Shown piece after piece: positions 1,675-24,022 of a DNA stretch of 42,796 nucleotides. Numbering within the stretch: the stretch's first letter is position 1; each line of letters begins with the position of its first letter. The stretch covers positions 1-42,796 of the forward strand of contig JAAYVZ010000111.1 in assembly GCA_012516935.1 (NCBI GenBank), given 5' to 3'. The DNA is from Holophagae bacterium. GTDB taxonomy: Bacteria > Acidobacteriota > Thermoanaerobaculia > Thermoanaerobaculales > Thermoanaerobaculaceae. The translations under genes and the position numbers were made by a program. Under the pieces are notes generated by a model, which saw only the letters and a program-made list of their open reading frames with translations, searched no databases and had not been told where the DNA came from.

Positions 1675-4600
1675 CTATGGCCCGGCGTTGACGGTGATCG
1701 AGCAGGGGAGCTCCGCCGTCTCCTGGGTGGGGTTGCTGGCATCCCTCACACGCAGCGTGAAGGAGAAGGTGCCCGCCGTGGTCGGGGTGCCGGTGATGGT
1801 GTTTCCGGTGATGGCAAGCCCGGCCGGGAGCGCACCCGCCGAAATCGTCCAGGTGTACGGGGTGGTGCCGCCGGTTGCGGTGAGGGACTGCGAGTACGCT
1901 GCTCCGACAGTGCCGTTCGGCAGCGGGCAGGTGGTGGTGATGGTGAGCGCCGGTGGCAGAATCGTGATGGGGTCGCTCACCGTCGAGACCGCGCACACAC
2001 CCGAGCCGGCCTGGGCAACGATGTTGCCGGAGCCAACGGCGGTCGGGGTGATGGTCACCGGCCATGGGCTGGGGACGTTGGCCGGAATCGTCACCGACCC
2101 CGGGGCGGCTCCGAACCCGACGTAGGTGAGGTTCACGGTGACCGGGCTCGTGAGCGTCGGAGGCTGGAAGTTGAGGTTGACCACGAACGGCGTGTTGATC
2201 CGCACCCCGGTCGCCGGTTCGCCGGTGATATCCAGGCTGGTGATGCCGACCGGGCGACAGCTGTTGTCGCACGGGATCACGAGCAGGGCGCCGTTGAGCG
2301 TGTCCTCGCACCCGTTGCGCAGGTTCTTGATGGTGAGCGAAAGCGGCGTCTGCACCCACTGCAGGCCGCACGTCCCGCTCCCGGTGGTGCACGAGATCTC
2401 CTGCACCGGCACCGCGGTCAGATCGGGCAGGACGAACGAGACCTCCTCGGGCCCGACCCACGTCGTCGGGATGTCGGCGGTGACGCCCGGGATCGAGACC
2501 ACCATCGCCGAGTTGGCGCCCAACTGCTGGAAGTTCTTGCCGTGCACGTGCACGGTGAACGCGCTCCAGGCGTTGCCGTCGCAGCCTCCACTGCCGCTCG
2601 GGTTCCTCATCGGCACCTGGTTATTGCCTCGCGGCGTGCCGTTGAGCGAGACCGACGCCGAGATCAGCAGCGGGGTCGGGGACTCGTAGTAGAAGGTGAT
2701 CCCGGAGGCCGTGATGTTGGAGTTGAGGTTGGTCACCTTGACGCCGGCTGAGGTGATGCCACAGCTACGCCGGTTGGCCGGCAGCGGCTGGATCTTGGCG
2801 ATGATCTCGGTGCCCGACACCGACAGCACGTTGGCCTGGATCGCCTCGCTGCCGATGGTGGTCACGACCTCGACCGGACCGACGAACCCCTGCCCGTAGA
2901 TCGTCACCGTCGTCTCGGCGTCGGCCGGGCCGTGGTTGGGCGAGATCGCCGACAGGAATATCGCCTCGCCGTAGCGGAAGACGAGGCCGTTCGAGCGCTT
3001 GCCGGTGGTGACGTTGAGCACCGTCACCTGGACGTTGCTCGGCGTGCCCGGCTGGCTGGGCGTGATCGACGGAGCGATGCAGATGACCTGGAAGAAGTTG
3101 CTGGTCACCACCTGGGCTTGCCGGTCGCCGAAGTACACCTGCACCGGCGACTGGAACCCCTGGCCGGTGATGGTCACCCGGGTGCCGCCGTCGACCGGGC
3201 CGGAGTTGGGCGACAGCGCGAACAGTTCGGGCGTGGGCACCTCTGCCAAGTAAAGGAAGCAGTTCGTGAGCTCCGCCCACGTTTCCCTCCCGCTTCCGAT
3301 TTGCGTTGTCACCTTGATACCAGCGAGCGTGTCTTTTTCCAGTGGTCCGGCGCCCCATGAGGGGGTTCTGATCGTGATCGCGGTCTTGTCTTGAGACACT
3401 TCAACGATCTCTGCGAAGCCGCCGGGATAGAATTCCACCTGCACCGGCTCGATGAAGTACTTGCCGTAGATCGTCACGGTATCGCCCCCACGGGCGCTGC
3501 CCCTGTCGGGAACAATGTTGAAGATCTGCGGGGAGCCGGCCTCCGACACGAAGGTGAAAGCTTTCTGCAGCTCCGCAGTGCCTCGGGAGTTCGTCACCTT
3601 GATGGTGGCCGGCGCGTCAGTGAGAACCGGCGTCGGCGACACCGTGGGCGTCAGGACCACGAGTTCCCTGGCATCGTCGGCAATACTGAGGACCTGAGCT
3701 TCTCTATCTCCGAAACCCTCGATTGCAAACACGACCAAGGGAGGAGAGATGCACTTGCCAGTTGCGGTGCTGTAGCCGCCGCAAAGCTCAGCGCCTAGAA
3801 TCTTGACCTCTTCCATCCCACGCGGACTACCCCTGTTCGGTCTGACAAAGTAGATAGAGGGCGATCCAACCTCGGTCGGCGGCAGCAGCCACGTCCAGCC
3901 GTTGGCGCGTTTGACCTCACCGCCGGCGGCCTTCACGGTTACATCCACCTGTTGCGGTCCCGTCTCGTCCACCTTCCGCGAGTGCTTGGGCGACAGCACC
4001 ACCAGCGACCCGTGGTCGGCAGCGATCGAGGTGATCTCCGCGTCCTCGTCCCCGAACTTGACCGTTATCGGGGGATAGAAGTTGGCGCCGAAAATCGTCA
4101 CCCGGTCGCCGCCGCGATCGAGGCCCTCCGACGGCACGATCTGGTAGATCGCCGGAGGTGGTGTCCCCGGTGGCAGGTCCGGCGGGGTGTAGATATAGAT
4201 GTACGCCTTGGTCAGCGTCTCGCTCACCGAGACGCTCTCGCCCTTCTCGTCGGTAACGCCGGCCATCGCCGTCACCGTGATGTCGGTCTCGAGGCTCCCG
4301 GTCACGGGGATCGGCGCCTTCGGGGTGATGACGACGAGCTCGGTGCCGGCGCTGTCGACGCTGGCGACGACCGCAGTGCGATCGATGCCTCCGGCCTTGA
4401 ACACCACGTCGAGCGGCGCGGCGAACCCACGGCCGCGAATCGTGACCAGCTGGCCGCCGTCAGCACCGCCCGTGTCGGGCTCGACGCCGTAAATCGCCAG
4501 GTTGCGCGGGGAAACGGGCTCGAAGTACCTGATGTTCTTCGAGATCGCCTGCCCGGGAACGCGCGCTGTGACCTGGAACAACCCTTCCGTGCGCCCCACC

Positions 4601-4935
4601 AAGGTGGCCGTCGCGACACCCGCCTGGGTGGTTCGAACCACCTCGCACCACCCGTTCTCGAACGAGGGATCCCAGGCGACGCCGGGGCCTGGGCAGTTGT
4701 AGAGCGAGAACGTCACCGACGTGTTGTCGGGCGCGCTCGCCCCACTCTGCGTCACGCGCGCCTGCAAGGTGACGGCGCTGCCGACCTCGGCCGAGCTGGC
4801 GGAAGCGTCGAGGGCGATCGACAGTGCGGCCGGCGTCGGCGAGGGCTTGGGCGCGGTCGGGCTGTCCGCCGAGCACCCCGCGAGGGTGAAAGCCAGGCCG
4901 AGCACCAGGGCTACGATTGAAAGTCTCTGCTTCAT
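1675..4935 (-). CDS. Large TIG/IPT-repeat surface lipoprotein, last gene of the pil operon
   Basis: 1086 residues, function unknown. Seen: a signal peptide ending in the lipobox LAGC (lipidated Cys21), a short Ser/Pro/Thr-rich linker and an Ig-like (Big-type) segment at about 38-130. Six TIG/IPT-type repeats follow near 146-245, 261-350, 358-462, 468-562, 568-655 and 658-750, each opening with a pattern like I-x-P-x-G-GG-xVTI-G-xF. A divergent region covers 755-890, and a putative Ig (He_PIG-like) domain lies at about 995-1083 (GTVGAAYSQSLTATGG, ITGTPTTAGTFSFT). ATG 4935 has GGGAG upstream; the longer open frame to 5490 lacks a signal peptide. The gap to the upstream lipoprotein gene is 23 bases and a terminator follows. 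TIG arrays occur in surface adhesins and filament-associated proteins, so a role in pilus-mediated contact is inference. The stretch 3240-3840 is visibly less GC-rich than the rest. Confidence 0.85.
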   Translation of the reverse strand: MKQRLSIVALVLGLAFTLAGCSADSPTAPKPSPTPAALSIALDASASSAEVGSAVTLQARVTQSGASAPDNTSVTFSLYNCPGPGVAWDPSFENGWCEVVRTTQAGVATATLVGRTEGLFQVTARVPGQAISKNIRYFEPVSPRNLAIYGVEPDTGGADGGQLVTIRGRGFAAPLDVVFKAGGIDRTAVVASVDSAGTELVVITPKAPIPVTGSLETDITVTAMAGVTDEKGESVSVSETLTKAYIYIYTPPDLPPGTPPPAIYQIVPSEGLDRGGDRVTIFGANFYPPITVKFGDEDAEITSIAADHGSLVVLSPKHSRKVDETGPQQVDVTVKAAGGEVKRANGWTWLLPPTEVGSPSIYFVRPNRGSPRGMEEVKILGAELCGGYSTATGKCISPPLVVFAIEGFGDREAQVLSIADDARELVVLTPTVSPTPVLTDAPATIKVTNSRGTAELQKAFTFVSEAGSPQIFNIVPDRGSARGGDTVTIYGKYFIEPVQVEFYPGGFAEIVEVSQDKTAITIRTPSWGAGPLEKDTLAGIKVTTQIGSGRETWAELTNCFLYLAEVPTPELFALSPNSGPVDGGTRVTITGQGFQSPVQVYFGDRQAQVVTSNFFQVICIAPSITPSQPGTPSNVQVTVLNVTTGKRSNGLVFRYGEAIFLSAISPNHGPADAETTVTIYGQGFVGPVEVVTTIGSEAIQANVLSVSGTEIIAKIQPLPANRRSCGITSAGVKVTNLNSNITASGITFYYESPTPLLISASVSLNGTPRGNNQVPMRNPSGSGGCDGNAWSAFTVHVHGKNFQQLGANSAMVVSIPGVTADIPTTWVGPEEVSFVLPDLTAVPVQEISCTTGSGTCGLQWVQTPLSLTIKNLRNGCEDTLNGALLVIPCDNSCRPVGITSLDITGEPATGVRINTPFVVNLNFQPPTLTSPVTVNLTYVGFGAAPGSVTIPANVPSPWPVTITPTAVGSGNIVAQAGSGVCAVSTVSDPITILPPALTITTTCPLPNGTVGAAYSQSLTATGGTTPYTWTISAGALPAGLAITGNTITGTPTTAGTFSFTLRVRDASNPTQETAELPCSITVNAGP

Positions 4936-4958
4936 ACTCGTCTCCCGCATTTCCGTCC

Positions 4959-5522
4959 TCACTGCCCCACGGCGTAGAAGAACCGGACGCTGAACTCGAA
5001 GCCGACGCTGACCCTCTGGCCGGCGACGGTCTTGCCGTAGATGTCGATACGGAGCTTCTGCCGGATGTTGTCCTGCCCGGTCTCCTTGTCGAACCCACCG
5101 TTTTCGGGCCAGAGCTGGTTGAGAGGGGGCTGGCGCAAGAACTCGACCGGCATGACACGGTAGTTGTCCAGCGACGCATTGCCGCCCGCCGGCACGTACA
5201 CGTTGTAGTAGTTCCGCCACTCCGGCGAGGCGGCCGTCCCTCCGTCGGTGCGGGTGAAGGTAACCACCCACTCGTTGAGCACGACGTCGTTTTGCACCGT
5301 CATCGGCCTCCCAGGAGCCTTCGCTTGCGACTTGATTAGCAGCGAGGGGATGGCGACATCCTCCCCCTGATTCACCGCAACGTCGGCAATGCCCTGGGGG
5401 ATGTCGACCGAGAGAACGATGTCGGCCGCATCGTCCGCGGAGTGGTTCCCACCGCTGCAGCCGGCCACAAGACCGAGCGCCAGACCGCACAGCGCCATCA
5501 GCACCAGGCGATTCGTTTTCAT
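4959..5522 (-). CDS. Small lipoprotein downstream of pilQ, function unknown
   Basis: 187 residues. Seen: MKTNRLVLMALCGLALG signal peptide with lipobox VAGC (Cys22), then a short acidic stretch and a beta-rich, soluble domain (VVTFTRTDGG, YYNVYVPAGG, LRIDIYGKTVAGQRVSVGFEF). I do not recognise a named family. ATG 5522 is preceded by GGGGGGCAGGT and lies 10 bases after the pilQ stop, so it is surely co-transcribed with the secretin gene. A lipoprotein encoded next to a secretin could be a pilotin or a secretin-associated lipoprotein, but nothing in the sequence proves it; the fold hinted at here is not the TPR fold of PilF/PilW. It may instead act together with the TIG lipoprotein that follows. 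Confidence 0.8.
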   Translation of the reverse strand: MKTNRLVLMALCGLALGLVAGCSGGNHSADDAADIVLSVDIPQGIADVAVNQGEDVAIPSLLIKSQAKAPGRPMTVQNDVVLNEWVVTFTRTDGGTAASPEWRNYYNVYVPAGGNASLDNYRVMPVEFLRQPPLNQLWPENGGFDKETGQDNIRQKLRIDIYGKTVAGQRVSVGFEFSVRFFYAVGQ

Positions 5523-5532
5523 ACCTGCCCCC

Positions 5533-7863
5533 CTAGTACTTCACGATCCGCGGAGTGATGAAGATCAACAGCTCGTCGTGGCGGTTGCTGATCCCCTTGT
5601 TCTTGAACAGGTTGCCGATGATCGGTAGGCGGTGCAGCCCGGGGACGCGGTCCTGCGACGACTGGTCGCTGAACTGGTAGATGCCGCCGATCACGGTGGT
5701 TCCGCCGTCCCTCACCATCAGCATGGTCTGGGCATCGCGGGTGATGAGCGGGGTGTTGGTACCCCCAGCCTGCTGGAGGCCCGAGGCCGGCTCGCGTTTC
5801 TGGACCTGGATGTTCAGGATCACCGTGCCTTCGGCGGTGATCTGGGGCGTGACCTGGAGCGCCAGGGTGGCGTCCACGTACTGCACCGTCACGGTGTTGT
5901 TGGACACCGTCTGGATCGGGATCATGACGCCGCTTTGGATGCGCGCCGTCTGGTTGTTCTGGGCTGTCACCTTGGGCGAGGAGACGACCTTCGCCAGGCC
6001 ATCGAGCTCGGCGGCGCCGAGCTGGAAGTCGAGGTTGAACGAGTCGAGGATGTCGGCGAACGCCATCGTCAACACCGGCGCGCCCTTGATGAGGTCGGAC
6101 CCACCCCCGATGGCGTAGCTGTTGGGGAACGTCCAGCCGGTCGTGGTGCCGTGGCGGGTGTCACCGCGCCCGTCGAACCCCCAGGAGATGCCGAGGTTGC
6201 GGGAGAACGTCCGGGTCGTCTCGACGATGCGCGCCTCGATGATGACCTGCTGGATCGGGATGTCGATCTGATCGAGAAGCGCCAGGATGTTCGGCAGGCG
6301 GTCGGCGTTGTCGCGAATGATCAGCATGTTGTTGCGCTCGTCGACCACCACCGTGCCGCGCCGCGACAGCAGGAAGTTCCCGCTCGTCAGCAGCGTCCGC
6401 GCCTCGACCGCCTTGATGTAGGAGAGCGTCCTGGTCACGGTCCGCATCGGCCGGGCGTCGTCTTCCTTGAGCTTGAACTCGGCCAGCCGCTGCTTCTCGG
6501 TCGCGAGCCGTTCGAGCCTTGCCACCCGCAGGACGTTGTTCTCGACCACGTAGTCGAGATTGTTGATGCGCAGGATGATATCGAGCGCCTGGTCCCACGG
6601 CACGTGCTCGAGCTGGACCGTCACCGAGCCGGACACGTCGGGGTCAACGACGACGTTGAGCCCGGTGATCTTGGCGAAGGTGCGGAGCACGTCCTTGACG
6701 TCCGCATCCTTGAGCTCGAGCGTCATCGGCTCGCCGGTGAACTTCTTCTCCTCGCTCTCCACCTCCCTGGCCGCCAAGGTGGCGGGCTTCTCCTGCCCCG
6801 CCTCCTCGGCGAGCGCCGCCGGGGTGGAGGTCCAAGGAGAGTCGGCCGGGGGCACCCGAGGAGCCGCCTGAGCCACCTGGGGAGCCGCCGGAGGGGCGAC
6901 CAGCGAGGCGGGCTCCGCGACCGATACGGGCGCGGCCGGCTCCACCTTCGGGGCCGGAGCGGGCGGCGCGTCGACGATCGTGGTTTGCCTCGTGAGGGCG
7001 GGCGCCGCCTCGGCCACCTGCAGCGCCGGCTCCGGCTCAGCCGCCGTCACCTCTGGTGCCTCAGCCGGCTCGGGCTCGGCAGCGGCCGGAACCGGGGTGG
7101 CCTCGGCGACCGCCACCGGCGCCGCCTCGGGAGGGGCTCCGACGCGCAACAGCGCGCCGTCGGCGGTGGGTTCGAGAGTGTACGGCTGCGCTGTCTCGAG
7201 GTCCACCGCCACCCGCACCACCGGGGTCGGCTCGGTAGCGTGCTGGGCGACCCGCACCCGAACCACGCCGCCGGCGCCGACCGGGTGTACCCGACGGGCA
7301 ACCCGGTTGATGACGCCGGGAAGGTCGACGACGACCCGGGGCGGGTTGTCGAGCGTGAAGACCTTGCCTTCCAGACGCCGGCCGCTCGCCAGGTGGATCG
7401 AGACCCCGGTGGCGTCGGCCACCGGCACCACATCCGCCAGATCGCGCCGACCCATCGGCAGCGCGGCGCCAAGACGCACCTCCAGCCCGGCCGGGAGGGC
7501 GCTCACGGCGACGCTGGCACCGGGCTCCACCTCGAGCCGCAGCTGGACCCCACCTTCAGAGCCCTTGACCAGCGCCGCCAGGGTGGCCCGCCGCAGCCCC
7601 GCCTCCGGGGCGGTGATCGGAGCCGTCTGCGCCGCCAGAACCGCGCCCTGCAGCTCGATCACAACCACGCCCGGCTCGGGCCGGGCCTCGCTGAACCGCA
7701 GGGGTCCTGAGGCGCTGATGACCAGCGCCTGGGCCGGCTTCTCCGTCCAAGCCATGCCGAGGACGGACACACTTTCTTCCGCCCCTGCCACCGCAGGAAG
7801 GACAAGGAGGGAGATCGCCGCCGCCACAACTGCTGTCACCGCGCGAGAACGTGTCGCCATCAT
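5533..7863 (-). CDS. pilQ: Type IV pilus secretin PilQ
   Basis: Forms the multimeric outer-membrane channel through which the type IV pilus passes. 776 residues from ATG 7863 (a second ATG follows at once at 7860; GGGGGT is the ribosome site). Seen in order: signal peptide ending AVAGAEE (about 1-30); two AMIN-like peptidoglycan-binding regions (about 33-130 and 155-242, the second with LDNPPRVVVDLPG); a long Ala/Pro/Glu-rich linker (about 243-375); a secretin N0/STN domain (378-450); a secretin N1 domain (475-535, VDERNNMLIIRD); and the secretin core (about 600-776) with VVSSPKVTAQNN and VPGLHRLPIIGNLFK. Ends LLIFITPRIVKY, the usual C terminus. Follows pilP by 19 bases. Length and domain order are normal for PilQ. 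Confidence 0.97.
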   Translation of the reverse strand: MMATRSRAVTAVVAAAISLLVLPAVAGAEESVSVLGMAWTEKPAQALVISASGPLRFSEARPEPGVVVIELQGAVLAAQTAPITAPEAGLRRATLAALVKGSEGGVQLRLEVEPGASVAVSALPAGLEVRLGAALPMGRRDLADVVPVADATGVSIHLASGRRLEGKVFTLDNPPRVVVDLPGVINRVARRVHPVGAGGVVRVRVAQHATEPTPVVRVAVDLETAQPYTLEPTADGALLRVGAPPEAAPVAVAEATPVPAAAEPEPAEAPEVTAAEPEPALQVAEAAPALTRQTTIVDAPPAPAPKVEPAAPVSVAEPASLVAPPAAPQVAQAAPRVPPADSPWTSTPAALAEEAGQEKPATLAAREVESEEKKFTGEPMTLELKDADVKDVLRTFAKITGLNVVVDPDVSGSVTVQLEHVPWDQALDIILRINNLDYVVENNVLRVARLERLATEKQRLAEFKLKEDDARPMRTVTRTLSYIKAVEARTLLTSGNFLLSRRGTVVVDERNNMLIIRDNADRLPNILALLDQIDIPIQQVIIEARIVETTRTFSRNLGISWGFDGRGDTRHGTTTGWTFPNSYAIGGGSDLIKGAPVLTMAFADILDSFNLDFQLGAAELDGLAKVVSSPKVTAQNNQTARIQSGVMIPIQTVSNNTVTVQYVDATLALQVTPQITAEGTVILNIQVQKREPASGLQQAGGTNTPLITRDAQTMLMVRDGGTTVIGGIYQFSDQSSQDRVPGLHRLPIIGNLFKNKGISNRHDELLIFITPRIVKY

Positions 7864-7882: not shown

Positions 7883-8374
7883 TCACTGCAGCACCCTGAC
7901 AACCTCGCGGTAGGGCTTGAGGCTCTTCGGATCGGCCACTTGCAGCTTGAAGACGACTCGGCCGGGCTCGACCCGGTCCACCGTGCCGTCGTACAGCACC
8001 ATGCCGGCACGGATCATGTAGCTCAGGTTGTCCGTACCCTGGATCATCGCCACCCAGCCATCCGGCAACTGGAGAATGCCCTTGAGCTGGATCTCCTCGA
8101 TCCCCATACCCCGGAGACCGGGCGGGCGCTCACCCATCTCTTCCTTGACCGGACCGGCGAGCAGCGACCGGAAAGGATCGCGCCGATTGGCGGCGTCGTA
8201 TGAAAAGCCCTGGCCAGCGTCGGCCGCCTCATCGCCCCGGAGGATGCCCTCGATCGCCGAGGTGTCGATCGGCGTCTCCGGCTTGGATTCCGGCACCGGC
8301 GTCGGGGAGGGCGCCTGCGCCAGGGCGAGGCTCGCAACCAACAGCACCCCCAGGGTCAGCGAGAAGGCCCTCAT
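7883..8374 (-). CDS. pilP: Type IV pilus inner-membrane lipoprotein-like protein PilP
   Basis: PilP links the PilN/PilO inner-membrane pair to the N0 domain of PilQ. 163 residues. Seen: an N-terminal hydrophobic export signal (MRAFSLTLGVLLVASLALAQA) without a clear lipobox Cys, a Pro-rich linker, then the PilP core with the diagnostic YDAANRRDPF motif and a beta-sandwich region (IQLKGILQLPDGWVAMI, YMIRAGMVLYDGTVDRVE, VVFKLQ). The classical proteobacterial PilP is lipidated; this one seems to have an ordinary signal peptide or anchor instead. ATG 8374 overlaps the pilO stop (ATGA) and is preceded by GGAGG. Translational coupling with pilO fits a fixed subunit ratio. Confidence 0.93.
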   Translation of the reverse strand: MRAFSLTLGVLLVASLALAQAPSPTPVPESKPETPIDTSAIEGILRGDEAADAGQGFSYDAANRRDPFRSLLAGPVKEEMGERPPGLRGMGIEEIQLKGILQLPDGWVAMIQGTDNLSYMIRAGMVLYDGTVDRVEPGRVVFKLQVADPKSLKPYREVVRVLQ

Positions 8375-8955
8375 CGCCCACCTCCGACCGGCTGCACATC
8401 CCCATAGATGAAAGTCTTCATGGTGAACGTCGTGTTGATCGAGAACGCGCTGCGCCGTGCGGTTATGGCGCTGATCCCGAGCGTGTCGACGTTGATGATG
8501 CGGGAGAACCGCGAGAGGCGGTCGAAAAACAGGGCCAGCTCGTGGTATGTGCCTTCCATCGTCACCGTGATCGGCCACTCGGTGAGAAATTCCTTCTTGG
8601 TGAACGCTCCCGGCTGGAAGGTCGCCAAGCGGAACGCGGCCCGCTCGGTGAGCGACTTGACCTTCTTGATCAGCTCGTCGGTCTGGCGCGCCGTCGGAAG
8701 GATGCGGAGCAGGCGCTGCAGGTCGGTTTCGAGACGCTGCGCCTCCTCGCGGAACTGGGGGAGCCGGCTCTCCGCCATCTTCCCCTGCCGCACCTTCTCC
8801 TTGAGCGCCTCGAGCTCCGCGGTGCTCCTGGTGATCTCCTGTTGGATCTCATCGAAGACCAACCGTTGCATGCCCCAGAAGAGGCCAGCGGCGAGCAGGA
8901 CGCCGATGATCGCGCCCCAGTACCAAGGTTTGCCGGTCAGATCCAAGGTGGCCAT
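8371..8955 (-). CDS. pilO: Type IV pilus alignment subunit PilO
   Basis: PilO pairs with PilN in the inner-membrane alignment complex. 194 residues. Seen: a short cytoplasmic tail, one membrane segment (about 12-30, WYWGAIIGVLLAAGLFWG), a coiled coil (about 35-85, rich in E/K/Q: ELEALKEKVRQGKMAESRL) and a ferredoxin-like periplasmic domain (about 90-185) with LPTARQTDELIKKV and the ITVTMEGTYHELALFFDRLSR-type signature of PilO. The start at 8955 has GGAG upstream and lies 15 bases after the pilN stop. Size and layout are normal for the family. Confidence 0.95.
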   Translation of the reverse strand: MATLDLTGKPWYWGAIIGVLLAAGLFWGMQRLVFDEIQQEITRSTAELEALKEKVRQGKMAESRLPQFREEAQRLETDLQRLLRILPTARQTDELIKKVKSLTERAAFRLATFQPGAFTKKEFLTEWPITVTMEGTYHELALFFDRLSRFSRIINVDTLGISAITARRSAFSINTTFTMKTFIYGDVQPVGGGR

Positions 8956-8970
8956 GACCCCTCCGCTCCT

Positions 8971-9570
8971 TCACTGCCCCTTCGGGGTCTCGCTCGCCTG
9001 CCGCGGCGTGTAGGAGAACGTGCAGGCAAGATCGAAGGAAAAGACGCCCTTGCTGTCCTGACTCATGATGTTGAGCGCCGGCTCCTGGAAAAACGGGCTC
9101 GACGCCAGGTTGGAGATGAAGTTGGCGACCGCGTTCTCGTTGAGCGCCTGGCCGCGAACCGAAAGCGTCGACCCGGAGAGGTTGAGGGAGCTCAACCAGA
9201 GGAGATCGGGCAGCGCCTTGCTGATCTCGTCCATGATGCGCACGGGGCCTTGCTGGTTCTGCTTGAGCCGCTCGATGACCTCGATCTTGCGTTTGAGCTC
9301 GGCGTTCTTTTTCTTGTACGCCTCGACCTCGTCGATGATCGGCTTGAGGCGCTCGAACTCCTTCTGGTTGACGACGATCTCGGCCTTGATCTCCTTGCGC
9401 TTGGAATCGAGCTGCCAGTAGCGGTACCCGACCACCCCCAGGCCGACGAGAAGCAACCCCAGGATGATGTAGTTGTTGATGTTCGCGCCACTGAGGGCGC
9501 CGAGGGCGATGAGCGGTTGGCGGGTGACCTTTTCAGCGCGGGCTTCGACGAGTAGGTTGACCTTGATCAT
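8971..9570 (-). CDS. pilN: Type IV pilus alignment subunit PilN
   Basis: PilN anchors the cytoplasmic ATPase-like PilM to the inner membrane and dimerises with PilO. 199 residues from ATG 9570. Seen: an N-terminal MIKVNLL, the conserved PilN tail that binds the PilM cleft (I-N-L core), one membrane segment at about 30-50 (YIILGLLLVGLGVVGYRYW), a coiled coil (about 52-100) and a periplasmic domain (MDEISKALPDLLWLSSLNLSG). The open frame continues upstream, but the MIKVNLL start is fixed by family similarity. It lies 5 bases after the pilM stop. Confidence 0.95.
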   Translation of the reverse strand: MIKVNLLVEARAEKVTRQPLIALGALSGANINNYIILGLLLVGLGVVGYRYWQLDSKRKEIKAEIVVNQKEFERLKPIIDEVEAYKKKNAELKRKIEVIERLKQNQQGPVRIMDEISKALPDLLWLSSLNLSGSTLSVRGQALNENAVANFISNLASSPFFQEPALNIMSQDSKGVFSFDLACTFSYTPRQASETPKGQ

Positions 9571-9575
9571 CGGCG

Positions 9576-10625
9576 TCAGTCTCCGGTGCTTCGCAGGCCC
9601 ATTCCCACCGCAACCGCCATGGCGGGGGCGTGTCGGTTGAGCCACTCAGGGCTGAACTGGCTCTCCGAGTAATGGATCTCGCGGAACGGGTTCATCAGCT
9701 CGACCCTGGCGCCGAGCCGCTCGCGCAGCACCCCATCGAGGTTGAGGACCTGGGACGCCCCACCGGCCAGCATCACCTCCTCCACCTGATCGTGGCTCGA
9801 GGTGGTGTAGAAGAACTCGAAGGTCTTCTGGAGCTCGGCCGCGAGATCCTCGCTCACCCCGTTGAGCACCCCGAGGATCGTCTGCGGCGTGTGGTCCCCG
9901 AGCTGCTCGCCGGCCTTGACCGCTTCGGCTTGCTCGCGGGTCAGGTTGAGCTCGCGCTGAATCGCCTCGGTGTAGGCGTTGCCGCCGAACACGATGTCGC
10001 GCCAGAAGACCGACTGCCCGTGGGCCAGGATGTTGACGTTCAAGATGTGGGCGCCGATGTTGACCAGCGCCACGACCCGATCCTGAGCGACGCCATAGTT
10101 GTGCTCGTAGGCGTTCTGCAAGGCGAACACGTCGACATCCACGAGCGCCGGGACCCTGCCGAGCTGGGTGATGATTCCGGTGTAGTCGGCGATGCGGTCC
10201 TTCTTGGCCGCCACCAGGAGCACATCCATGTTGTCGGTGTCCTGCGATAGCACGACGTAGTCGAGGTTGACCTCGTTGACGTCGAACGGCAGGTACTGCT
10301 CCGCCTCCCAGTGGATCGACTCCGCGAGCTCGGCCTCCGACATCGCCGGGACCTGGATCTTGCGGATCGCCACCGACATGCCGGAGAGCGAGATGCCAAT
10401 GCTCGGGTTCTTGACCCCTTGCTCCTGGAGCAGCCGCTGGGCCGCCTCGACGACCAGCGACGAGTCCATCACCGTGCCCTCGACGATTGCCTCCGGGGAC
10501 AACGGTGCGTGGGCGGCATGGATCAGACTGAAACGACCGCCCTTACCAGGCTTGAGCTCCACGAGCTTGATCGCCGAGGAGCCGATGTCAAGTCCGACGA
10601 TCGACTTCTTCTTTCCTAGCAGCAC
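9576..10625 (-). CDS. pilM: Type IV pilus actin-like ATPase PilM
   Basis: Cytoplasmic, actin/FtsA-like protein that binds the PilN tail and couples the pilus motor to the alignment complex. 349 residues, GTG start at 10625. Seen: phosphate-1 motif VGLDIGSSAIKLVEL near the N terminus, GISLSGMSVAIRKIQVP, FDVNEVNLDYVVL, a second phosphate-type segment (VVALVNIGAHILNVNIL) and the adenosine motif EVMLAGGASQVLNLDGVL. First gene of the operon pilMNOPQ plus two lipoproteins. The leader is about 67 nt long from the predicted transcription start near 10692. The length is typical. Confidence 0.97.
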   Translation of the reverse strand: MLLGKKKSIVGLDIGSSAIKLVELKPGKGGRFSLIHAAHAPLSPEAIVEGTVMDSSLVVEAAQRLLQEQGVKNPSIGISLSGMSVAIRKIQVPAMSEAELAESIHWEAEQYLPFDVNEVNLDYVVLSQDTDNMDVLLVAAKKDRIADYTGIITQLGRVPALVDVDVFALQNAYEHNYGVAQDRVVALVNIGAHILNVNILAHGQSVFWRDIVFGGNAYTEAIQRELNLTREQAEAVKAGEQLGDHTPQTILGVLNGVSEDLAAELQKTFEFFYTTSSHDQVEEVMLAGGASQVLNLDGVLRERLGARVELMNPFREIHYSESQFSPEWLNRHAPAMAVAVGMGLRSTGD

Positions 10626-11195: not shown

Positions 11196-13367
11196 TCAAA
11201 ACTGGGACCGGCGGGAAAACGCGGACGGGCCCGAGGCCACGCTGGTCACTCCCGCCAGCTGCCGCAACGCCCCGAACACCTGGCCGAGGTGCTCGCGGCC
11301 ACGAATGTCGACGATGAGATCGGCGGCTCCGCGGCGGCCGTCGCGAGTGGTCATCTGGCAGCTACGGATGTTCGCTTCCTGGGCGGTGACCGCCTGTGTG
11401 ATCGCCGCCAGCATCCCGGGGCGATCGTCGAAGCTCACGTTCAGCGGCACCGCGTACGTGCCGCCCTCGGTCGGTCCCCACTCGACCTTGACGAGGCGGT
11501 CGCCAGCGGCCTGGAGACGGCGGAGGTTGTGGCACCTCGTCGTATGGATGGCCACGCCGCGCCCGCGCGTGATGTATCCACAGATGTCGTCGCCCGGCAG
11601 GGGGTTGCAGCAGCGGGCCCGGAAGGTCAGGAGGTCGCGTTGGCCCTTGACCGTGACCACCGACTCGGTGACCACCGCAGGGGAGGCTTTGGAGGGCGGG
11701 GGATGCAGCTCGTCGGGACGCTTGGAAAGCGGCAGGAGGACGTCGCGCGCGCCCAGACGCCCCATGCCGACCGCGGCCAGGAAGTCGTCGCCCTTGGCGA
11801 ACCCGTGCTCCCGCGCCATTTTCGTGAGCTGGGAGGCATCACGGAGCCGCTTGACCGGGATCCGCAGCCGCCGGCACTCCCGCTCGAGCAGACGCTGCCC
11901 GAGCTCCACGGCCTGCTCCTTCTCGCCCCGGTTGAACCACGCCCGGATCTTGTTCTTGGCCCGGGCGGTGGCGGCGATGTCCAGCCAGTCCCGGCTCGGC
12001 ACCTGCGTGGGCGAGGTCATGATCTCGACGATGTCGCCGTTTTCCAGGTGGGTCCGAAGGGGGACCAGACGGCCGTTGATCCGGACCCCGACGCACCGGT
12101 GCCCCACCTCGGTATGGACCCGGTACGCGAAATCGATCGCCGTGGCACCCCGAGGAAACGCGAACACCTCGCCTTTCGGCGAGAAGGTGTAGACCTCCTC
12201 GGGGTAGAGGTCGAGCTTGAGCGAGTCCAGGAAGTCCCGCGGGTTCTCCTGCTGCCCATCGACCAGGCCGCGCAGCCAGTTGGCGCGCTCCTGCTCGGCC
12301 TCCACGGCCCGCCCGGTCTTGTACATCCAGTGAGCGGCGATGCCGCTCTCGGCGATCTGGTCCATGTCGAAGGTGCGGATCTGGACCTCGAACGGCTGGC
12401 CTTGGGGACCCATCACCGAGGTGTGCAGCGATTGGTAGGCGTTGGGCTTGGGCATCGCGATGTAGTCCTTGATGCGGCCCGGCACCGGATGCCAGAGCTG
12501 GTGGATGAGGCCGAGGACGCCGTAGCACTGCTGGACCGTCGCGACGACGATGCGGAAGGCGAGGAAGTCGTAGACACGGTCGAGGCTGATCCCTTGACGC
12601 TTGAGCTTGGCCCAGATCGAGTAGAGGTGCTTGATCCGCCCCCGGATCTCGGCCTTGATGCCGTTCTCCTCGAGCACCCGTCCGAGCATCTCCCGGATCT
12701 CCTCGATGAGCGCGCGCGCCGCCGCCTCCCGCTGCTGCAGCTGCTCGACGAGCTGGGCGTGCTCCTGGGGGTTGCTGTGGGCGAACGCCAGGTCCTCGAG
12801 CTCGGCCTTGATGCGACCGATGCCGAGCCGATGCGCGATCGGGGCATAGATCTCCAGCGTCTCGCGAGCGATGCGGCGCCGGTTCGCCTCCGGGAGGACG
12901 CGCAAGGTGCGCATGTTGTGCAGCCGATCCGCGAGCTTGACCAGGATCACCCGCACGTCTTCGACCGAGGCCAAAAGCATCCGCCGCACGTTCTCCGCCT
13001 GCGCCGCCTCGCGGGCCGCGTAGGACTGCTCCATCGTGGTGATCTTGGTCAGCGCCTTGACGATGCTCGTGATCTGGACACCGAACTGGGCCTCGAGCTC
13101 GTCCTCCGTCACGAAGGTGTCCTCGAGCAGGTCGTGGAGCAGCCCGGCGGCGATCGCCACCTCGTCGAGGTGCATCTCGGCGAGGATGCGGGCCACCTCG
13201 AGCGGGTGAACGAGGTACGGCTCGCCAGAAACCCGCACCTGGCCGCGGTGCGCCATCGCCGAGTAGACGTAGGCGTGGCGCAGGAGGTCCTCGTCGCACT
13301 CCGGGTGGTAGCTGGCGACGAGATCCAGGATCTCCTCGAAACGGGGCAACGCCTCGCCCATCCTCAT
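11196..13367 (-). CDS. rel: Bifunctional (p)ppGpp synthetase/hydrolase Rel
   Basis: Makes and degrades the stringent-response alarmone (p)ppGpp. Up to 723 residues. Seen: an HD hydrolase domain (about 25-180) with the RVSGEPY loop, LVHPLEVA, HDLLEDT (His78, Asp79) and KLADRLHNMRT; a synthetase domain (about 235-345) with YDFLAFRIVV, GRIKDYIAMPKPNAYQSLHT and EVQIRT; a TGS domain (about 388-450); and a C-terminal ACT domain (VPLNVSFDDRPGMLAAITQAV). The RxKD motif in GRIKD is the form found in bifunctional Rel rather than in synthetase-only RelA, and all hydrolase residues I can check are present. Two in-frame ATGs, 13367 and 13361. The second lies exactly 6 nt after a TACAAT box, so a leaderless mRNA starting at 13361 is plausible. 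Confidence 0.96.
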   Translation of the reverse strand: MRMGEALPRFEEILDLVASYHPECDEDLLRHAYVYSAMAHRGQVRVSGEPYLVHPLEVARILAEMHLDEVAIAAGLLHDLLEDTFVTEDELEAQFGVQITSIVKALTKITTMEQSYAAREAAQAENVRRMLLASVEDVRVILVKLADRLHNMRTLRVLPEANRRRIARETLEIYAPIAHRLGIGRIKAELEDLAFAHSNPQEHAQLVEQLQQREAAARALIEEIREMLGRVLEENGIKAEIRGRIKHLYSIWAKLKRQGISLDRVYDFLAFRIVVATVQQCYGVLGLIHQLWHPVPGRIKDYIAMPKPNAYQSLHTSVMGPQGQPFEVQIRTFDMDQIAESGIAAHWMYKTGRAVEAEQERANWLRGLVDGQQENPRDFLDSLKLDLYPEEVYTFSPKGEVFAFPRGATAIDFAYRVHTEVGHRCVGVRINGRLVPLRTHLENGDIVEIMTSPTQVPSRDWLDIAATARAKNKIRAWFNRGEKEQAVELGQRLLERECRRLRIPVKRLRDASQLTKMAREHGFAKGDDFLAAVGMGRLGARDVLLPLSKRPDELHPPPSKASPAVVTESVVTVKGQRDLLTFRARCCNPLPGDDICGYITRGRGVAIHTTRCHNLRRLQAAGDRLVKVEWGPTEGGTYAVPLNVSFDDRPGMLAAITQAVTAQEANIRSCQMTTRDGRRGAADLIVDIRGREHLGQVFGALRQLAGVTSVASGPSAFSRRSQF

Positions 13368-14213: not shown

Positions 14214-15458
14214 TCAGGTGTGCGTCAGCGCATCGACGATGCGCAGCCGGGCCACGCGCAGCACGGGGGCCACCGCCGCCAGCGCGAGGACGGTGAGCAT
14301 GAGAAGGATCGCGCCTCCGAACGCCTCCGGTACGAACACCACTCGCAGCTCGATCGGGTCGACCGCCCCGGGAGGGGGAGGCATGGTGATGCCGATCGCG
14401 TTCAGCAGCCCGATCAGGCCGGCGCCCAGCACGTCGCCCACCACCCCACCGATGAGCCCCAGCCACACGGCCTCCAACCCGATCAAACCGGCAACCTGCC
14501 AGACCGAGGTGCCGAGGGCCCGCAGCGTACCGAGCTCCCGAAACCGCTCCATCACCGTCATGGTAAGGGTGTTCGAGGTCGCCAGCACGACGAGCGCGAA
14601 GACGATCGTGCCGAGGAACCAGAAGATCCCGACGTACAGCGCTTCGACCTGGGCGTAAAACGGTGCCCGCTCGGTCCACGGCACGACCGCGAGCGGCGGC
14701 TGGTGCCCGGCCAGCACACTGCGGACGCTGGCCAGTGCCTCCTCGGTACGGCTCGTGCGGTCGAGCGTGACCAGCAGGTTCGAGACCCTCGTGGTGCCGA
14801 GCAGCCGCTGGGCCGAGCCGAGCGAGAGCCGCAGGTAGCGGGTGTCGAGCTCTTGGACACCGGTCGTGATCAGACCGGCGACGGTGACGTCGAGGGCGTT
14901 CAGCATCCCCTCGAGATCCACAGCCAGCAGGGTCACGCGGCTACCGGGACCGACCCCCAGCGCCTGCGCCAACCCCTGCGCGATCATCACCCGATCCTCG
15001 CCCTCGCGCGGCGGCGCATCCGGCACCGGGTCACCCTGGCGGAGCTTCACCGAAAACCCCATGCGCCGCTCGCGAGCCGGATCGCCGGCCACGCCCAGAA
15101 AGGCCGCGGACGTCCCGCTCGCGGTCGAAACCATCCCGGCCACGTGCACGGTCGGTGAGGCGGCGAGCACCCCCGGCAAAGCCTCGACCTGCCGCTGCAC
15201 GACCTCCCAGTCATCGAGACCCTCGGCTGGCGAGCGCTCGAGCGTCGCCGTGCGACCCGCCGAAGCGCTGCCGAGCGCGATCTCGAGGTGGCCGAGACCG
15301 CCGTGGATCATGGCCTCCGACAGCCCCTCGAACGAGAACGCCATGAACCCGGCGGTGAGCAGCAGCGCCGCCGTCCCGGTCGCCACCACGGCCAGCGAGA
15401 TCGCGGTCCGCCGACGGTTGCGAGCGAGATTGCGCAGGGCAAGCAAAGCCAGCTTCAC
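14214..15458 (-). CDS. ABC transporter permease, FtsX/LolE/MacB type
   Basis: 414 residues, GTG start. Inner-membrane partner of the ATPase encoded just upstream. Seen: a basic N terminus followed by a membrane segment (LARNRRRTAISLAVVATGTAALLLTAGF), a large periplasmic domain (about 50-265), then three membrane segments (about 270-300 GIFWFLGTIVFALVVLAT, 320-360 and 375-405) with the FtsX-like sequence MTVMERFRELGTLRALGTSVWQV. This four-helix plan is typical of mechanotransmission ABC proteins that move lipoproteins or work across the periplasm rather than pump small molecules. Overlaps the ATPase gene by 4 bases (GTGA). Confidence 0.9.
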   Translation of the reverse strand: MKLALLALRNLARNRRRTAISLAVVATGTAALLLTAGFMAFSFEGLSEAMIHGGLGHLEIALGSASAGRTATLERSPAEGLDDWEVVQRQVEALPGVLAASPTVHVAGMVSTASGTSAAFLGVAGDPARERRMGFSVKLRQGDPVPDAPPREGEDRVMIAQGLAQALGVGPGSRVTLLAVDLEGMLNALDVTVAGLITTGVQELDTRYLRLSLGSAQRLLGTTRVSNLLVTLDRTSRTEEALASVRSVLAGHQPPLAVVPWTERAPFYAQVEALYVGIFWFLGTIVFALVVLATSNTLTMTVMERFRELGTLRALGTSVWQVAGLIGLEAVWLGLIGGVVGDVLGAGLIGLLNAIGITMPPPPGAVDPIELRVVFVPEAFGGAILLMLTVLALAAVAPVLRVARLRIVDALTHT

Positions 15459-16156
15459 GCCGACGCCTTCCTCTCGTCGCTCGCGACGCGGCCGTCGTGC
15501 AGGGCGACGCGCCGGGGAGCCCGCGCGATCAGGGCGGCGTCGTGGGTGGCGATGACGAACACCGTGCCATGTGCGCGATTGAGCGACATCAGCAGCTCCA
15601 TGACCTCGGCGGCGGTCCCGGAATCGAGGTTGCCGGTCGGCTCGTCGGCCAGCACGGCGAGCGGCCGGTGAACGAGCGCCCTGGCGATGGCGACGCGCTG
15701 CCGCTCGCCGCCCGAGAGCTGGTCGGGGCGGTGTCCGCGCCGAGCACCCAGCCCCACCTCGGCGAGGGCCTCGTGCGCCCGACGGCGGCGCTCACCGCTG
15801 CTGACCCCAGCCAACCACAGCGGCAGCTCGACGTTCTCCTGGGCGGAGAGCACCGGCAGCAAGTTGAAAGTCTGGAAGACGAAACCGAGCCGGATACGCC
15901 GGAACGCCGTGCGTTCTGCCTCGCCCATCGACGAGGCCGGGGTCCCGTCGATCGTCAGTGCACCGGCATCCGGCTCGTCGAGCGTCCCCAGCAGGTGGAG
16001 GAGCGTGCTCTTGCCCGAGCCCGACGGCCCCGCGACCACGAGCACCTCGCCCGCCGAGACCTGGAGGTCGACGCCGCGCAGCGCCTCGACCGTGGCCTGG
16101 CCCATGTGAAAGCGCTTGCTCAGGCCGCGGGCGTCGAAGACCGGAGGTGCCGTCAT
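15455..16156 (-). CDS. ABC transporter ATP-binding protein, LolD/MacB type
   Basis: 233 residues. Powers the FtsX-type permease. Seen: Walker A GPSGSGKST (about 44-52), Q-loop VFQTFNLLPVLSAQEN, signature LSGGERQRVAIARAL, Walker B LAVLADEPTGNLD and the switch His in VIATHD. The Q-loop and signature sequences are those of the LolD/MacB/FtsE group. Overlaps the RND stop (ATGA) and the permease start, so the three proteins are made together. Not given the symbol lolD because a genuine LolCDE may be encoded elsewhere. Confidence 0.92.
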   Translation of the reverse strand: MTAPPVFDARGLSKRFHMGQATVEALRGVDLQVSAGEVLVVAGPSGSGKSTLLHLLGTLDEPDAGALTIDGTPASSMGEAERTAFRRIRLGFVFQTFNLLPVLSAQENVELPLWLAGVSSGERRRRAHEALAEVGLGARRGHRPDQLSGGERQRVAIARALVHRPLAVLADEPTGNLDSGTAAEVMELLMSLNRAHGTVFVIATHDAALIARAPRRVALHDGRVASDERKASA

Positions 16157-23184: not shown

Positions 23185-23880
23185 CTACTCATTGCTCCCG
23201 AGCTTGACCTCCACGACCTGAACATCGGGCGGCAGCGCGAGCGAAAAGAAGGCGTGTTCGATCGGCTGGTTGGTGACGATGTCGGTGAAGCGATAGGCGA
23301 CAGAATCACCGTCCGCCTCGACGTACGAGACCGCGACCGGCATCATGCGCACCCGGTCGATCTCGACCTCGACCCGCCGGAGGCGTTTCTTGATCAGATG
23401 CGAGATCGGGTTGAGGAGGAGGGTGTAGTTGGAGTCGTCGCCCGGATCGCGGAAAGTGAAGGAGAAGTTCTGCTTGAGGCGGTCCAGTGGCTCGGCGGCG
23501 CCGACGAATCGCAGCACCCGGCGCTGCAGCCGCCCCACCTCCACCCGCTCGGCCCGCTTCTCGGCCGGACGGTAGGTGATCGCCACTCCCTCCGCGAGCA
23601 CGACCGTCATCGGGTGGGGCGTCTCGTACTCCCAGCGCACCAGGTCGGGGCTCAGGTAGTAGAAGCGTCCGACCGAAACCGTCGGCTCGGCGAGCAGCCG
23701 GCTGGTCTTCCGCTGCTCGAAGCGGGCCTGCAAGGTCGTGATCCCGGCCTGCACCTGCGTCACCCGCTGCACCAGCGCCGCCAGCTTGTCGGCGCCTTTG
23801 AGATCGGGTGGCAGCGGCGCCTGGGCCAGCGCAACCGAACTCCCGCTCAACGCCACCAGCAACCGGGCCCACCACCTCAT
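23185..23880 (-). CDS. lolA: LolA family outer-membrane lipoprotein carrier
   Basis: Periplasmic chaperone that ferries lipoproteins to the outer membrane. 231 residues from ATG 23880. Seen: signal peptide MRWWARLLVALSGSSVALAQA, then the LolA beta-barrel pattern: ITTLQARFEQRKTSRLL, VGRFYYLSPDLVRWEYETPHPMTVVLAEG, LLLNPISHLIKKRLRRVEVEID and a final AFFSLALPPDVQVVEVKL. LolA proteins share the F-Q, G-f-...-P-..-RW-Y-.P pattern visible here. It heads the lolA-tgt-yajC-secDF operon. An alternative ATG at 23898 would add six residues. A TACGGT box lies 8 nt upstream, so the mRNA may be leaderless or nearly so. Confidence 0.88.
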   Translation of the reverse strand: MRWWARLLVALSGSSVALAQAPLPPDLKGADKLAALVQRVTQVQAGITTLQARFEQRKTSRLLAEPTVSVGRFYYLSPDLVRWEYETPHPMTVVLAEGVAITYRPAEKRAERVEVGRLQRRVLRFVGAAEPLDRLKQNFSFTFRDPGDDSNYTLLLNPISHLIKKRLRRVEVEIDRVRMMPVAVSYVEADGDSVAYRFTDIVTNQPIEHAFFSLALPPDVQVVEVKLGSNE

Positions 23881-23888
23881 GGCCGGCA

Positions 23889-23918
23889 ACCGTAGCATCG
23901 GAGCGAGGCCGGAGGCAA
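23889..23918 (-). promoter_or_regulatory. Promoter of the lolA-tgt-yajC-secDF operon
   Basis: On the minus strand TTGCCT (23913-23918), an 18-bp spacer and an extended -10, TGC-TACGGT (-10 at 23889-23894). The -10 ends 8 nt before the lolA ATG, leaving room for only one or two leader bases. Confidence 0.55.
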
Positions 23919-24022
23919 CCGGCAAAAGACCGCAGACCGGCGGGCTCCGAGCCTCGCGTGCGGCCCGCTCGGGGGGGATCCCCACCTGCTCGAAGCACTA
24001 CAATGCGAGGTTGGAGGTGCGT

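Follow-up and report, generated by a model that had tools for sequence, protein, structure and literature searches.

The window analysed here, a stretch of 42,796 nucleotides from a member of the Acidobacteriota, carries on its minus strand a type IVa pilus (T4aP) operon that closes with two lipoprotein genes. The genes pilM (9576..10625), pilN (8971..9570) and pilO (8371..8955) were assigned by Pfam, pilP (7883..8392) has a weak Pfam match below the cut-off (E 0.0011), and pilQ (5533..7863) encodes the T4aP secretin with a single AMIN domain. Behind pilQ lie the gene of a small lipoprotein of 187 residues (4959..5522) and that of a large lipoprotein of 1086 residues (1675..4935), and just 3′ of the latter a strong intrinsic-terminator-like hairpin (1654-1629, minus strand), with a stem of 11 pairs, nine of them GC, and a T-rich tail, marks the end of the operon. 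The preliminary description, which had placed two lipoproteins and a clear terminator here, holds on both counts: the two ORFs are confirmed, the small one with a signal peptide and lipobox and the large one with a lipobox. The gaps between pilM, pilN, pilO, pilP, pilQ, the small gene and the large gene are, in order, 5, 15, -22, 19, 10 and 23 nt, as computed from the coordinates with start codons of our own choice, and this spacing suggests that pilMNOPQ and both lipoprotein genes share one transcript. The GC3 of the lipoprotein genes (0.862 and 0.872) compares with 0.859-0.900 for pilM to pilQ and 0.58-0.72 for antisense ORFs, so that, judged by codon-position GC, both lipoprotein ORFs are genuine genes, unlike the long antisense ORFs. 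The large gene has another ATG 15 nt before its assigned start (4935-4950, minus strand), and since relatives keep a similar 'MRETTMKRN' stretch, either ATG may be the start. Further upstream on the same strand are a RelA/SpoT homologue (11196-13367), which precedes pilM, and possible lipoprotein-sorting genes, namely an FtsX-type permease with an ABC ATPase (14214-16156) and LolA (23185-23985), the latter being the carrier of lipoproteins to the outer membrane. Rfam and tRNA scans across the window returned no hits.

The small lipoprotein combines a signal peptide and a lipobox cysteine, Cys22, that is invariant across 41 aligned family members, with a predicted Ig-like beta-sandwich at about residues 35-182 (AlphaFold2, mean pLDDT 88.9), and an 'NGGxDxETG' stretch between strands is conserved in the family. 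Described beforehand as belonging to no known family, the protein indeed gave no match to Pfam on its own, and the 41-member family gave nothing meaningful against Pfam, NCBIfam or PDB sequences; a first scan of genome contigs with the single protein as query also gave no match. A fold search with the model retrieved only generic Ig-like matches (transglutaminases, ApaG, TRAP, streptococcal proteases; best Z 9.0), from which, because they are generic, no function is drawn, and Foldseek returned no match with E < 0.001. Six small lipoproteins of the family (L057, L058, L060, L062, L063, L066) carry a cysteine-rich C-terminal stretch, for example CFNCGGC, that is absent from the window protein.

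The large lipoprotein consists of a lipobox cysteine (Cys21), a 'CSADSPTAPKPSPTP' linker, an N-terminal Ig-like domain, six IPT/TIG motifs, further beta domains and a C-terminal He_PIG domain (residues 999-1073). The motifs, of the type 'PxxGxxxGGxxVTIxGxxF', lie near residues 152, 268, 366, 491, 576 and 666; they were read by eye, as were the SPTAP counts below. Pfam finds TIG (E 7e-44) with five stretches passing, and PF01833 scores 148.2 bits against a gathering score of 20.9, in agreement with the six or so TIG repeats and the Ig-like C terminus initially proposed for this protein. Across loci the size of the large lipoprotein ranges from about 150 to 1580 residues, several cysteines are nearly invariant, and in most members a proline-rich linker follows the lipid cysteine, with the exact SPTAP in 20 of the 40 listed and variants in others; L031 was left out of the large-lipoprotein set cut at predicted starts. 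The N-terminal domain shows a weak Big_1 score, below the cut-off, in L094 and L095. The model of the whole protein is weak (pLDDT 72.8, pTM 0.35) and therefore does not establish a rod shape; the top Foldseek matches are plexins, which contain IPT arrays, at low global TM-scores (0.12). Plexin ectodomains share tandem IPT domains with the bacterial lipoprotein, but at such scores the domain type is all that is common to them.

The small lipoprotein and PilQ were sought in the same 99 related genomes of the class Thermoanaerobaculia (Acidobacteriota). A small lipoprotein is present in 74 of these, and in 73 of the 74 hits it shares the strand of PilQ, with its match starting 12-305 nt past that of PilQ; the remaining hit is at a contig start. 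In the other 25 genomes pil genes are missing or the operon is interrupted by a contig end. Fourteen genomes of genus g21 have no small lipoprotein, no PilM and no PilQ orthologue; in G079 and G083 the small lipoprotein is missing and PilM was not found; and in nine (G002, G011, G012, G014, G016, G027, G065, G070, G091) the operon is cut at a contig end, as deduced for G014, G016 and G027 from how little sequence remains beyond their last matched pil gene. G070 retains the beginning of the small gene before the contig ends. No class genome with a visible pilQ 3′ end lacks the small gene, and hence, as far as contigs allow, it is present in every machine-bearing genome of the class, which is not the case phylum-wide.

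For the wider family search, which covered Acidobacteriota only, a profile of the 41 members was run against 297 genomes of this phylum with completeness >= 90%. It matched 115 of them, while PilQ was above its cut-off in 231. The hits outside the class number 91, from 89 genomes; 88 of them are behind pilQ (81 from match positions, among the PilQ matches listed, and seven from fetched loci, L107, L128, L131, L158, L160, L161 and L162), two stand at the start of a contig and one is unlinked. The survey of pilQ neighbourhoods proposed beforehand thus finds a fixed place for the small gene in the pilMNOPQ operon both inside and outside the class. The sole unlinked copy (L157:3175-3735, minus strand), located behind an MshEN-domain protein, is an extra paralogue in G103, whose genome also has a linked copy. 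As controls, 20 loci were chosen by hand from genomes that have pilQ but gave no hit: nine of them carry a distant homologue at the position of the small gene, nine carry none, in one the match is borderline (E 0.02) and one runs out at the contig end. The count of 115 is consequently a lower bound, and the nine hand-picked control loci that have PilQ and neither gene suggest that the pair is dispensable for some T4aP. We looked for pilQ standing without the pair while the pair occurs unlinked elsewhere, which the preliminary description had named as evidence against a joint role; all pilQ genomes without a detectable pair are outside the class, and the only unlinked copy is the paralogue that accompanies a linked one.

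Neighbourhoods were fetched for 40 of the 74 class hits and 40 of the 91 outside hits, plus seven more outside hits later, the loci being chosen by hand so as to represent different families and, for the most part, to leave out short contigs. Each of the 40 class loci has, next after the small gene, an ORF that matches the large lipoprotein with E 6e-18 or better. A homologue of the large family's N-terminal part was found in 32 of the 40 outside loci, always directly behind the small gene, and in the other eight the large partner is not detectable; with the iterated profile, all 34 N-terminal matches in 60 phylum loci likewise fall directly after the small-lipoprotein gene. Rows were added to the iterated profiles at E up to 1e-4 (control loci) and 1e-3 (large N-terminal family), and since these profiles were trained on the set that they scored, their E-values overstate the significance; the plain profile had already matched L148 and L150. 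Family f26 has the small domain (residues 14-189 or 7-184) and then Ig-like repeats within a single polypeptide (L103:4364-6352, minus strand; L111:3939-5291, plus strand). These repeats were read by eye, Pfam giving no confident domain, and the single-chain fusion ties the functions of the small and large proteins together. A third lipoprotein, with a similar proline-rich start behind its cysteine, follows the pair in five loci (L055, L061, L067, L068, L069), and both of the two that were checked have Big_1 and Invasin_D3 domains.

The linkage to pilQ and the co-loss with pilQ and pilM provide good support for the pair belonging to the pilus machine, and likewise for the earlier proposal that a known machine has here a component not yet described. 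The explanation that we infer to fit the data best is a rod or collar associated with the secretin, and in its full form this reading has, in our view, about an even chance of being right: the pair would be T4aP parts of Acidobacteriota, a small Ig-like lipoprotein at PilQ and a large accessory rod, most likely forming a stalk or collar. At the core would be the small lipoprotein, whose Ig-like domain, anchored at the outer membrane, would act at the PilQ secretin. The large one would stand on that side of the membrane too, as an accessory rod built in order from a lipid anchor, a flexible proline-rich linker, one Ig-like domain and a series of beta domains, IPT/TIG and others, that varies between members. 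The stalk or collar that the two would most likely form would surround the pilus exit and steady the gate or touch the surroundings. In the window's large lipoprotein we read about ten beta domains from sequence and model. One such domain is about 4 nm long, and a straight rod of about ten would exceed the usual periplasm, which favours a location on the cell surface. A bolder version, which we offer tentatively and hold to be somewhat doubtful, is that the T4aP secretin of Acidobacteriota has an outer-membrane subunit family of its own, in which the small Ig-like lipoprotein would ring PilQ and bear a separate or fused Ig/TIG rod as an extracellular collar for pilus passage.

Alternatively, both lipoproteins may be anchored in the inner leaflet as a periplasmic clamp that ties the secretin to the envelope, the job of TsaP, a secretin-associated T4P accessory protein with a LysM peptidoglycan-binding domain. 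Lipoproteins encoded in this operon could equally face the periplasm, the window PilQ has one AMIN domain only, and nearly invariant cysteines in the large family are what would be expected in an oxidising compartment. However, Pfam finds neither LysM nor another peptidoglycan-binding domain in either protein, with about ten domains the rod would be long for a periplasmic structure, and its length varies between loci over the range given above; we consider this clamp unlikely. The pair resembles TsaP as a putative accessory at a T4P secretin and differs from it in the missing LysM domain and in consisting of two lipoproteins encoded behind pilQ.

Less probable still is that the small protein, proposed at the outset as a pilotin, escorts PilQ to the outer membrane and aids its multimerisation in place of PilF, PilW or Tgl, with the large one as a co-transcribed surface protein. 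It is a lipoprotein apparently dedicated to PilQ, as pilotins are, its gene stands right behind that of its secretin and is lost together with it, and no TPR protein exceeds the PilW cut-off in any of the 99 genomes; yet the same cut-off is reached in none of 14 control genomes, so the latter count says little. T4aP pilotins are TPR lipoproteins folded as six-TPR superhelices (PMC10653833), and the role of PilW in T4aP is also treated in PMC10191384. By contrast, the predicted fold of the small lipoprotein is an Ig-like beta-sandwich, with no Pfam TPR match, and the genome encodes elsewhere a separate TPR lipoprotein of 260 residues, which in NCBIfam matches PilW best, at 91.8 bits where the cut-off is 154, and Tgl third best. 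These observations weaken the pilotin proposal and make the small lipoprotein likelier to be an added secretin-associated piece. Equally improbable is that the two are surface adhesins merely riding on the pil transcript, with no secretin contact, since, even though variable Ig/TIG repeats are frequent in adhesins and a further Big_1/Invasin_D3 lipoprotein lies nearby in two relatives checked, it is the small protein that is conserved, and this protein has no repeats and keeps its place by pilQ in 73 of the 74 hits inside the class and 88 of the 91 outside it. The weak Big_1 score of the large N-terminal domain recalls invasin/intimin-type proteins, from which the large family differs in being lipid-anchored and encoded in the pil operon.

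A literature search in which subscription journals were thinly covered found no description of the pair; the small protein falls outside any family model, solved structure or paper found, and the large one is named only by its TIG and Ig domains. Most of what is known about the outer-membrane end of T4aP machines comes from Thermus and a handful of Proteobacteria, where it comprises PilQ, a TPR pilotin and some accessory proteins. A lipoprotein family that is fixed behind pilQ throughout a class and spread over the phylum suggests that this end differs between phyla. Acidobacteriota are a large phylum, common in soil and water, and the pair provides a marker for their pil operons as well as a defined gene set for removal in cultured members.

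In the relatives L032 (8842-10274) and L052 (8225-10187) the pair is followed by genes for a TPR protein and a Roadblock/LC7-type protein and by a biotin-carrier gene, unlike the window, where the operon stops after the pair and ubiE follows.
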